DNA of 33,752 nucleotides from a virus. Under the pieces are notes generated by a model, which made no database searches, was not told where the DNA came from, and saw nothing but the letters and a program-made list of their open reading frames with translations. The stretch covers positions 1 to 33,752 of the IMG/VR virus record IMGVR_UViG_3300008266_008826. One strand, 5' to 3'. This document shows positions 13,738-16,493 of this stretch, in pieces. Numbering within the stretch: the stretch's first letter is position 1; each line of letters starts with the position of its first letter. The position numbers and the translations under genes were made by a program.

Positions 13738-14950
13738 AGTGTCAGATGAATTTGCAAAAAAAGTTTTAGAAGAACTTGCTTCCCCTGGCAAAACAGGGTC
13801 CGATAGACGGGCTCAAGAGACTCCAGAGGCATTTAGACCTCGTATGGATATAGACCACACTTCTGGTGGTTTTGTTGTCAGCACCCCAAGACCGGCTGGT
13901 AACTCTGCAGATGCTAATGAAATTTTAATTGAATTTGGTCTTGATCCAGCAGCGTGGAAAGTCACAAGTGTACGTCAAGGTAAGTGGCAAACTTTTAACG
14001 AAAACTGGCTTGAATCTTTCCGAGTATCAGTTGTTCCAGCAGACTATGCAGACAGCCTAGATTCAGACTTAGATTTAGAAAAACTTGTAGATGAAATTAA
14101 AAAATGGAAACCAACAAAAGGTTCCAAGCAAGTTACAGGAGATGGAGCTTTTGTAATTGCTCCTAGCGATCAACAAATTGGTAAAAAAGCAAATGGTCAC
14201 GGAACAGAACAATCAGTTCAAAGAATTCTTGGAGTTACTGAAGGTGCCTTTGCTCGCTACCAAGAACTAAATAAAATTGGTCGTAATCTTGGAACTGTAG
14301 CAATGCTTCTTGCAGGAGATCACGTAGAAGGAAATGTTTCTCAGGGCGGGCGACTACAAAGCCCAGCAGCCTCTGATTTAGGTCAGACAGAGCAGACACG
14401 AGTTGCCCGTCGTTTATTGATGCAACAAATTAAGGCTTTTGCACCACACTGCGAGGAACTTGTTATCGCTGTGGTAAATGGAAATCATGACGAAGTAACA
14501 CGTCAAGTTGTAGCCGATCCTTCTGACGGGTGGAACGTAGAGATTGCTTCTGCAGTCCAAGACGCTTGTGCAGAGAATCCAGAACTTGCTCACGTAAAGT
14601 TCCGTTACCCAGAAAAAGATCATCAGACTTTAACTGTAGACATTAAAGGAACTCTTGTAGGTCTATTTCACGGGCATCAAAGCGGACGCGATGTTGTTAA
14701 ATATCTATCTGGACAAGCTGCAGGACAGACTGCTCTTGGTCAGGCAGATGTCTGGGTTTCAGGACACTTCCATCATTTTAAGGCTCTAGATATTGGCTCT
14801 CGCCTATGGCTACAAGCTCCTACTACCGATCCAGGTTCTCCATGGTGGCGCGACCGTTCAGGTTTAGAAAGTAAGCCAGGTCTTTTAACTTTTACTGTGG
14901 GACAGAATCACGACGCTCGTAGAGATATAAGCATCATTCAAACAGATTAA
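13727..14950 (+). CDS. Calcineurin-like metallophosphoesterase
   Basis: This 407-residue protein has the two-metal phosphoesterase motifs in order: APSDQQIGK (146-153), AGDHVEGN (196-203), NGNHDE (251-256), FHGHQ (314-318) and SGHFHHF (345-351). The first motif is D-x-Q instead of the usual D-x-H, so one metal ligand is changed. Residues 1-135 are a separate N-terminal region, probably for DNA or partner binding. Family members cut phosphodiesters or phosphomonoesters; in phages they often act as Mre11/SbcD-like nucleases or RNA/DNA end-processing enzymes, but no SbcC-like partner is seen here. Its stop codon shares the palindrome TTAA with the stop of the convergent WhiB gene. Confidence 0.85.
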   Translation: MDPKVSDEFAKKVLEELASPGKTGSDRRAQETPEAFRPRMDIDHTSGGFVVSTPRPAGNSADANEILIEFGLDPAAWKVTSVRQGKWQTFNENWLESFRVSVVPADYADSLDSDLDLEKLVDEIKKWKPTKGSKQVTGDGAFVIAPSDQQIGKKANGHGTEQSVQRILGVTEGAFARYQELNKIGRNLGTVAMLLAGDHVEGNVSQGGRLQSPAASDLGQTEQTRVARRLLMQQIKAFAPHCEELVIAVVNGNHDEVTRQVVADPSDGWNVEIASAVQDACAENPELAHVKFRYPEKDHQTLTVDIKGTLVGLFHGHQSGRDVVKYLSGQAAGQTALGQADVWVSGHFHHFKALDIGSRLWLQAPTTDPGSPWWRDRSGLESKPGLLTFTVGQNHDARRDISIIQTD

Positions 14951-15426
14951 GACTTTTTCTTTTCTTTTTTCTTTGCTTCTTTTTCGGCTTTGTAGGCTTC
15001 TACAGCATTTGCACTGGAGCGTCCGCGCCAAGCAAAGCCACATTCGGTACAAGTAACTACCTTTGCGCGAGTCCAACGACCCCCCGGTGGGAGAGTCTCA
15101 ATAGAAGTATTTAACTTGCCTGGACGAGCAGTGCAGTAAGGGCAATTAGGCGGTCTATTACGCTTAGTTTCTTCGCCATTGTAGGCTACAGAAAGCGCCC
15201 TACGGAGTTCAATCTCATCTTTGCCACCCCAGATACCCCAAATTTCTCTGTGCTCTAGAGCCCACTGTAGGCAGTTTTTACGTACAGGACAGGAGAAACA
15301 CATGTTTTTAGCTTTGTTTTTCTCTACAGGATCCTTTGAGTAGAACCAAGTCATAGATTCTTTTTTGGATGGGTCAGCGCACAAGGCGTTTTTTTGCCAT
15401 CTTAAATTATCTGCTGGTTTCCACAC
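14947..15426 (-). CDS. WhiB-family regulator with C-terminal zinc-ribbon-like extension
   Basis: This 159-residue protein carries the four [4Fe-4S] cysteines of the WhiB family: C16, then C43-x2-C46-x5-C52, followed by the GIWGG turn (64-68). WhiB proteins bind the primary sigma factor and change promoter choice in Actinobacteria. Unusually, residues 95-129 add two CxxC pairs (CPYC and CTECGFAW), a zinc-ribbon-like module, before a very Lys/Glu-rich tail ending in KKKEKKKS. I chose the GTG at 15426 because a promoter (-35 15472-15477, -10 15448-15453) lies upstream of it; a TTG start at 15495 would add 23 hydrophobic residues unlike the family. No clear ribosome binding site. Confidence 0.85.
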   Translation of the reverse strand: MWKPADNLRWQKNALCADPSKKESMTWFYSKDPVEKNKAKNMCFSCPVRKNCLQWALEHREIWGIWGGKDEIELRRALSVAYNGEETKRNRPPNCPYCTARPGKLNTSIETLPPGGRWTRAKVVTCTECGFAWRGRSSANAVEAYKAEKEAKKKEKKKS

Positions 15427-15447
15427 AGAAGCAATTCTAATAGAAAT

Positions 15448-15477
15448 ACTATAAATTAAGGCTCTGTAACACGCCAA
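15448..15477 (-). promoter_or_regulatory. Candidate promoter for the WhiB/zinc-ribbon gene
   Basis: On the minus strand TTGGCG (15472-15477) and TATAGT (15448-15453) are 18 bases apart, and the predicted transcript starts shortly before the GTG at 15426. The -10 box is identical to the two in the divergent control region near 12.9 kb. Confidence 0.5.
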
Positions 15478-15524: not shown

Positions 15525-15833
15525 CTATCCCCTAAATCTGTAATCTGTGTAACCTAGTTCGTCACAAGACATTAGCTCTAAATCAAAATCGCTATTTCCA
15601 GCCCAACCAAAAGTTGACTTTGATTTCTCCAACTTTTTGAAGCTTTCTGATAAAGAATCAGTTATACCGTCTCTCTGAATAGCCGAGGCAAGAGCCCTGC
15701 GGACTAAATCGTTTTCCATAGAAACGTGGTCTTTTGTGTAGAAAATAAAAGTCTCAGAATCTTCTGAAAAATTTAAGTAACCAGAACCAAGCCATTCTTC
15801 CCAGAGTGACTCACCTATTCTAGAATCCTTCAT
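15525..15833 (-). CDS. Small acidic protein of unknown function
   Basis: This 102-residue protein is not recognised. It is acidic, with several Trp and Tyr residues (SLWEEWLGSGYLNF), a Ser/Lys-rich helical centre (SLSESFKKLEKSKS) and an acidic C-terminal part (SDFDLELMSCDELGYTDYRF). There is one cysteine, no membrane segment and no HTH. Its start overlaps the end of the preceding zinc-binding gene by 14 bases, so they are coupled. It lies between two WhiB genes, suggesting an early regulatory block, but its role is unknown. Confidence 0.55.
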   Translation of the reverse strand: MKDSRIGESLWEEWLGSGYLNFSEDSETFIFYTKDHVSMENDLVRRALASAIQRDGITDSLSESFKKLEKSKSTFGWAGNSDFDLELMSCDELGYTDYRFRG

Positions 15834-16119
15834 CTATGTCACCGATAGACATTTCAAAATTATTATCTATCTCATCATCTTCAAGAAAATATACTTCTGA
15901 TGGCTTTTTGACTTCAAAAATTCCAGCAATTGTTAATGCACCGCAAAGACAACAAGTTTCAACACTTTCGGTATTAACTTTATTGGGAACATCTACACCA
16001 ACAAGTTTCATTAAAATGGTGCCATTTTCGTCCATGCTTTCTGGCTCCCACCTGGTGTGATCATCTAAATAACACGACTCACAAATAGCCATGGGACGGG
16101 GGTCTTTCTTGCTAGACAT
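15820..16119 (-). CDS. Small protein with cysteine/histidine zinc-binding pattern
   Basis: This 99-residue protein has CESC followed by LDDH (residues 13-21), and later TCCLCG (56-60 region). This is a probable single treble-clef or zinc-ribbon site like those in small phage proteins that touch RNA polymerase or DNA. The C-terminal third is very acidic (FLEDDEIDNNFEM, IGDIDEGF), resembling a DNA mimic or polymerase-binding tail. The start has the strongest ribosome binding site of the region, AGGAGG, so it is probably made in quantity. The function is not recognised. Confidence 0.6.
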   Translation of the reverse strand: MSSKKDPRPMAICESCYLDDHTRWEPESMDENGTILMKLVGVDVPNKVNTESVETCCLCGALTIAGIFEVKKPSEVYFLEDDEIDNNFEMSIGDIDEGF

Positions 16120-16184: not shown

Positions 16185-16493
16185 TTAATCAACTAAGTAC
16201 TGAATAGTTGCGAGATTAATGTTTCTTTTTCTACGAGCATCTGTAAGCTCTACAGGACTAAGACCACCCCACACACCAAACTGTTCGTGTTGTATACCCC
16301 ACTCAGCGCACTCAACTATGTGGTCACAACTTTTACATATGCTTCTTGCTAATTTAACGTTTGTAGCATTTGTATCTAGTTGACCAGGATCATCAGCATC
16401 CCCATAAAAAAACAAATCTCCACCGACTTCCCTACACAGAGGGTTTTCATATGTCGATGGAAATGGAAGTTGAGGCTTTGTTTTTTTGTACAA
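16185..16493 (-). CDS. WhiB-family transcriptional regulator
   Basis: This 102-residue protein is a standard-size WhiB-like protein. The Fe-S cysteines are C20 (NPLCRE) and C53-x2-C56-x5-C62 (ICKSCDHIVEC), followed by AEWGIQHE and the GVWGG turn (73-77), then a basic C-terminal piece (DARRKRNI) that may touch DNA. It would bind the host primary sigma factor and redirect transcription. The start is a TTG at 16493 with only a weak AGG upstream; a later start would not remove any motif. It is a second WhiB gene within 1.1 kb, distinct in sequence from the one at 14947-15426. Confidence 0.88.
   Translation of the reverse strand: MYKKTKPQLPFPSTYENPLCREVGGDLFFYGDADDPGQLDTNATNVKLARSICKSCDHIVECAEWGIQHEQFGVWGGLSPVELTDARRKRNINLATIQYLVD

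Follow-up and report, generated by a model that had tools for sequence, protein, structure and literature searches.

Freshwater surveys usually recognise actinophages by their WhiB genes, yet most of the phage WhiB proteins have no known role. Among the described systems that come close to the one treated here are cellular regulators of the WhiB-like (Wbl) family. Residues F31, F32 and W76 of WhiB3 (F17, F18 and W60 of WhiB1) are reported to be essential for binding sigma-A4, and an AT-hook of WhiB7, placed upstream of the -35 region, adds promoter specificity (available text of PMC10245118). Streptomyces WhiB works with a partner, WhiA, which is a precedent for a Wbl protein acting as one of a pair (PMC10245118). 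Among phages, the WhiB protein of TM4 acts on host transcription (PMC10202952, PMC10611076), and a survey of phage WhiB genes covers over 800 loci, zinc being unmentioned in its available text (PMC8612146). A fusion of WhiB with a zinc ribbon was described in none of the papers found by title and abstract in a search of open-licence PMC papers, and the reading of DNA by a zinc ribbon in WhiB proteins is undescribed in the literature searched.

The gene analysed here, whiB-ZnR, lies in a window of 33,752 nt (IMG/VR virus record IMGVR_UViG_3300008266_008826, positions 1 to 33,752). The window is a phage sequence with genes for a terminase, a Prim-Pol/D5 primase-helicase, DNA polymerase A, a SNF2-type helicase and exonucleases. 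The product of the gene, WhiB-ZnR, has the layout of WhiB7, in which a sigma-A4-binding WhiB domain is followed by a C-terminal part that engages DNA on the upstream side of -35 (PMC10245118), although for WhiB-ZnR such binding is only predicted. Unlike WhiB7, it is encoded by a phage, has a zinc ribbon and a Lys-rich tail instead of the AT-hook, and is accompanied by an acidic partner gene; the AT-hook motif RGRP of the WhiB7 type is absent from all 159 residues. TM4 WhiB shares with it the phage origin, and no zinc-ribbon tail is mentioned for the TM4 protein in the available text of PMC10202952 and PMC10611076, a comparison made by description only. The best PDB sequence match is Streptomyces WhiB (8dy7/8dy9, E 2.7e-12), from which WhiB-ZnR differs in that its partner is a small acidic orphan with no convincing family match in Pfam, PHROG or the PDB.

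Domain organisation of WhiB-ZnR

The features of the locus are collected in Table 1. The GTG codon at 15426 is favoured as the start of WhiB-ZnR, since the alignment with close relatives begins at residue 1 and the codon is preceded, at a distance of 7 nt, by a -10-like TAGAAT; longer frames, from TTG 15495, are unnecessary.

Table 1. Features of the whiB-ZnR locus, with positions in the window.
Feature	Position	Strand	Basis and remarks
WhiB-ZnR gene	14947..15426	-	159 aa; GTG start at 15426, stop 14947; translation and Pfam WhiB (E 6.3e-17)
WhiB [4Fe-4S] domain (predicted cluster), residues 10-76	15199..15399	-	Pfam PF02467 above cut-off; VIA-align Z 6.3 to WhiB3, 6.2 to WhiB1
Zinc-ribbon domain (predicted), residues 88-146	14989..15165	-	CPYC 15133-15144, CTEC 15040-15051; spacing invariant, AF2 strands, ribbon chains nearest
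Lys-rich C-terminal tail, residues 147-159	14950..14988	-	Translation; composition kept, sequence varies among relatives
Putative -10 element TAGAAT	15434..15439	-	7 nt before GTG; leaderless promoter candidate
GCGTGT box	15469..15474	-	Would span about -48 to -43 with a transcript beginning at the GTG; weak, and picked after inspection
Acidic partner gene	15525..15833	-	Directly upstream of whiB-ZnR; 3' end frameshifted in the window relative to near-identical contigs
Small protein with two CxxC pairs	15820..16119	-	Flanked by the WhiB genes, as in several relatives
Second, short WhiB gene	16185..16493	-	Pfam WhiB (E 8.9e-11); same gene run
KOW-like protein, 141 residues	17027..17452	-	43% identical to Pumpernickel gp107

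A preliminary description, made from the sequence alone, had proposed that the protein joins a complete WhiB Fe-S domain to a zinc-ribbon-like tail, and both halves were found. The Pfam WhiB model scores 62.3 bits against a curated cut-off of 23.6, which places the protein within the Wbl family, and the cluster cysteines (C16, C43, C46 and C52) and the GIWGG turn (residues 64-68) are all present. These four cysteines, together with W10, F28, G64, W66, G67 and G68, are invariant in 32/32 aligned sequences. The AF2 model, built with neither zinc nor cluster, has a mean pLDDT of 67.5, and block values of 52-74 across residues 1-80 give moderate confidence in the WhiB half. Residues 9-80 of the model match WhiB3 and WhiB1 in VIA-align with the Z scores of Table 1, both of these having been solved with sigma-A4. 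Judged by its sequence, WhiB-ZnR is a phage-encoded Wbl regulator with a predicted [4Fe-4S] cluster.

A basic linker leads from the WhiB domain to CPYC (residues 95-98), which is followed by CTECGFAW (126-133) and the Lys-rich end. The 31 residues originally given for the distance between the two motifs hold from start to start, with 27 residues between the pairs. In the AF2 model, strands at 105-111, 120-126 and 132-138 followed by a helix give the three-stranded topology of a zinc ribbon. The nearest folds in VIA-align were RPA12, RPB9, TFIIS and VdcD, a weak but coherent set with Z of 3 to 4.1 over about 39-47 residues. The Foldseek match of the tail to RPB9 was weak (E 0.59), and the full-length protein gave nothing in the PDB at E <= 0.001; among viral models, Foldseek clearly matched a single unnamed viral protein of 142 residues (E 9.7e-8). 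RPB9, RPA12 and TFIIS resemble the modelled fold of the tail at these weak Z scores, without a significant sequence match, and the hairpin tip of WhiB-ZnR is GGRW. Together with the invariant CxxC pairs and the nearest folds, the model supports a zinc-ribbon-type domain, as had been suggested; zinc would be bound by four cysteines that, from the topology, are expected to converge.

Among curated families, the best likeness was to VdcD (NF041205) in 15/17 members, with a best E of 6.9e-6 that is nevertheless below the 30-bit cut-off of the model (16.3 bits for the window protein and 25.8 bits for the best of five members scanned). A profile of the tail found the ShdD/VdcD chains in the PDB (E 0.0075). 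VdcD forms a three-stranded, zinc-containing ribbon that has a pair of CxxC knuckles and resembles TFIIS (available text of PMC8379154), and it shares the two CxxC pairs and three strands with the tail. It differs in being a stand-alone decarboxylase subunit without a WhiB domain.

Lar-type models match the tail too, which raises the question of an anti-restriction ribbon riding on a WhiB protein. PF14354 weakly matches 8/9 tails (best E 0.0032) and TIGR03655 weakly matches 7/17 proteins (best E 3.5e-4), but all scores are under the curated cut-offs (15.0 against 28.6 bits for the window tail with PF14354; 20.8 against 39.6 bits for the best of five proteins scanned with TIGR03655). The similarity is one that ribbons in general would show, and we consider a Lar-like function very improbable.

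Conservation and distribution of the fusion

The same two-part arrangement, for which a search in other phages had been recommended, defines a phage subfamily and is not a one-phage oddity. In IMG/VR, a scan that used the protein of the window as query found 281 relatives (best 80 fetched), a scan with an alignment found at least 500 (best 80 kept, the loci overlapping contigs of the first scan), and a scan with the homologue from Dishui Lake phage DSL-LC01 found 97 (best 80 kept). A WhiB frame followed by two further CxxC motifs was present in 237/237 fetched loci. Parsing yielded 121 distinct proteins from 235 of these loci, two having been left out by the stricter pattern, and the spacing between the CxxC pairs was exactly 27 residues in 121/121 distinct phage homologues; the tail motif is therefore more than chance. 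The invariant tail columns among 32 aligned sequences include P93, C95, P96, C98, R101, P102, L105, G116, R117, W118, V124, C126, C129, F131, W133, R134, R136, S138, N140, A141 and Y145. The conserved cysteines and hairpin tip point to a domain that is probably folded and in use.

In the phage collection, 1016 records match WhiB-ZnR, 14 of them over at least 80% of its length. The search with the tail only returned nine records, namely DSL-LC01, seven Microbacterium phage records and one match at E 1 that was taken as unrelated. A shorter ribbon occurs in Arthrobacter phages Atuin and Racecar. Mycobacterium phage Saroj gp60 (L087:3977-4378) is a WhiB protein with a different Cys-rich end, CKYC...CSMDC, and is perhaps an independent fusion of WhiB with a zinc finger.

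Such a tail is not a common feature of the WhiB proteins of cells: CxxC after the WhiB domain was found in 0/79 cellular WhiB frames from bacterial genomes (best 80 of 134 relatives). A GRP AT-hook-like motif lies within 60 residues after the domain in 48/79 of these frames, so the ribbon occupies the place of the DNA-binding tails of other Wbl proteins. A cellular origin of the tail was considered and set aside, as none was seen among the WhiB frames in the best 80 of 134 cellular loci; a rare cellular copy is possible. The domain architecture of WhiB-ZnR is real, well conserved and, among the sequences compared, specific to phages; proteins of this type, with their fixed partner gene, form a subfamily of the phage WhiB-like regulators.

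The partner gene, a putative promoter and the phage setting

Two elements of the locus are new here, having escaped the preliminary description: the paired acidic gene and a putative leaderless promoter. The partner protein has about 112 residues and a median pI of 4.1, against 9.6-9.9 for the four WhiB-ZnR proteins computed. In a profile search of 158 loci, of which four had no room for it, the partner ended no more than 250 nt upstream of whiB-ZnR in 154/154 loci with room. It was also found in DSL-LC01 and in 5/5 fetched Microbacterium phages, whose proteins match the partner profile to profile with an hhalign probability of 98.8. The reciprocal search from the partner gave 465 relatives, many of them on contigs identical to those of the WhiB-ZnR scans, and WhiB-ZnR was in the locus for 76 of the best 80. 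In the other four the contig stops at the partner or within about 250 nt after it; the partner without WhiB-ZnR was thus not seen among the best 80 of 465 wherever the contig continues. The two genes overlap at stop and start in DSL-LC01, Pumpernickel and Cece, and are 45-73 nt apart in the listed cases of the window's clade. Nothing in the PDB convincingly resembled the confident model of the partner (pLDDT 85): Foldseek reached E 1.2 at best, and the highest Z, 3.5, was to ribosomal proteins in tied rows. These missing matches do not establish a new fold.

In the window, a short direct repeat makes the partner gene seven bases longer, close to its 3' end, than in two near-identical contigs, and shifts the frame. 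The frameshift is either biological or an assembly error; intact copies exist.

The partner and WhiB-ZnR probably act as a functional pair, in which the acidic protein may bind or modulate WhiB-ZnR. This pairing bears on the question of what the ribbon contacts. The VdcD ribbon binds its enzyme subunit (available text of PMC8379154), and the best sequence likeness of the tail, being to a protein-binding ribbon, therefore speaks for protein contact and against DNA reading. The ribbon might accordingly be a protein-protein adaptor that binds not DNA but either the acidic partner or a subunit of RNA polymerase, with the partner doing the work, by analogy with the allosteric activation of VdcC by the VdcD ribbon. 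The tight pairing and the opposite charges of the two proteins would suit such an adaptor as well. On the other hand, the tail and the Lys-rich end have the strongly basic character to be expected of nucleic-acid binders (each of the four proteins computed has a pI of about 10), and the two Arthrobacter phages have the ribbon with no partner detectable by the profile search. We regard the adaptor as a possibility of some weight, though an unlikely one.

The sequence upstream of whiB-ZnR has the pattern TANNNT 3-8 nt before the start codon in 58/58 distinct upstreams of the window's clade, against 30/400 control ATG frames of the same loci; the 58 upstreams are related to each other, and some of the control frames are spurious. 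Such a short distance is compatible with a leaderless transcript in the one clade. Among the other window genes listed, none was seen with a similar -10 arrangement, and the C4 gene, to name one, is preceded by an AGGAGG leader. In most upstreams, a box of the form GTGT/GCGT/GAGCG precedes the -10 element by about 31-36 nt, and the GCGTGT box of the window, since it was defined after inspection, is a lead only. A regulon search of 10 records with the pattern GTGT-N26-33-TANNAT-N5-8-RTG recovered the whiB-ZnR promoter from most of them but gave 29 matches against 20 for the reversed control, so that a regulon is unsupported.

The second WhiB gene keeps the Cys pattern and has GVWGG; as it is conserved about 0.75-1.1 kb upstream of whiB-ZnR in clade relatives, one locus makes two different WhiB proteins. 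The product encoded between the two WhiB genes (99 residues, with CESC and CCLC) had no match in Pfam or PHROG and is possibly another small zinc protein. Pumpernickel gp107, the relative of the KOW-like protein, is encoded two genes before the WhiB-ZnR of Pumpernickel, and likeness and position together show synteny of the locus between phages whose hosts differ.

Three WhiB genes were counted in 10 of 16 large related records, two in three and one in three. This number bears on a further explanation, in which WhiB-ZnR would be a host-takeover repressor that competes for sigma-A with the WhiB2-type regulators of the host and silences host promoters, with non-specific DNA affinity as the sole contribution of the ribbon. 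The analogy is with the WhiB of mycobacteriophage TM4, for which PMC10202952 and PMC10611076 cite repression of the whiB2 gene of its host. However, most of the related phages carry other WhiB copies able to do such repression, and the invariant ribbon geometry and the hairpin residues G116, R117 and W118 suggest more than non-specific affinity; this role is improbable.

Region 2 of sigma-70 (Sigma70_r2) was found in 0/16 large related records and the beta subunit of multi-subunit RNA polymerase in 0/17 records, the window included, from which it follows that the related phages probably depend on host sigma-A. Matches to Sigma70_r4 in 8/17 records were rejected as phage sigma factors, as each extends over about 23-28 positions of the profile and region 2 was seen in none of the records. 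The frames concerned are mostly of about 200 residues; two with a weak region 4 match (G008:C1:28828-28911 and G009:C1:74276-74359) are of about 2,100 residues.

Sigma-factor binding and a proposed mechanism

At the positions of the WhiB3 residues essential for sigma-A4 binding, the window protein has, by alignment, F28, Y29 and W66. Position 29 is His in some relatives, and the position of W66 is Arg in 5/5 Microbacterium phages (GTRGG or GTRAG), in which sigma binding may differ. Capture of sigma-A by WhiB-ZnR is plausible from these residues and from the lack of Sigma70_r2 in the 16 large related records. The preliminary description had read the fusion as two-ended, with sigma factor at one end and RNA polymerase or DNA at the other. 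The ribbon-type tail and the retained aromatic residues are in line with that reading, whereas the contact of the tail with DNA or RNA polymerase is a part that we infer.

In our preferred explanation, the WhiB domain would dock on region 4 of the host principal sigma factor inside RNA polymerase, and the zinc ribbon with its basic tail would take the place of the AT-hook of WhiB7 and touch the promoter DNA immediately before its -35 region. WhiB-ZnR would be made together with the small acidic partner and would help to turn the RNA polymerase of the host towards phage promoters around replication. As a whole, from the Wbl regulator through sigma docking, ribbon-DNA contact and the partner pair to the redirection of RNA polymerase, this explanation has in our estimate a probability of roughly 0.5. 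A bolder form would make the pair a two-protein takeover module: WhiB-ZnR would capture host sigma-A, its ribbon would read a new promoter element upstream of -35, the acidic orphan would be a co-regulator or built-in antagonist, and the leaderless promoter would be the module's own feedback target. We consider this form doubtful.

Under the preferred explanation, the pair of WhiB-ZnR and its partner probably steers host RNA polymerase towards virus genes. With its fixed partner, WhiB-ZnR is a concrete and cloneable pair for testing how actinophages redirect host RNA polymerase, and named isolates carrying it are Microbacterium phages Pumpernickel, Zooman, A3Wally, Big4 and Cece. If the ribbon reads DNA, it would represent another route to promoter specificity in WhiB proteins, in addition to those that WhiB7 has in its AT-hook and WhiB3 in its Arg-rich motif.
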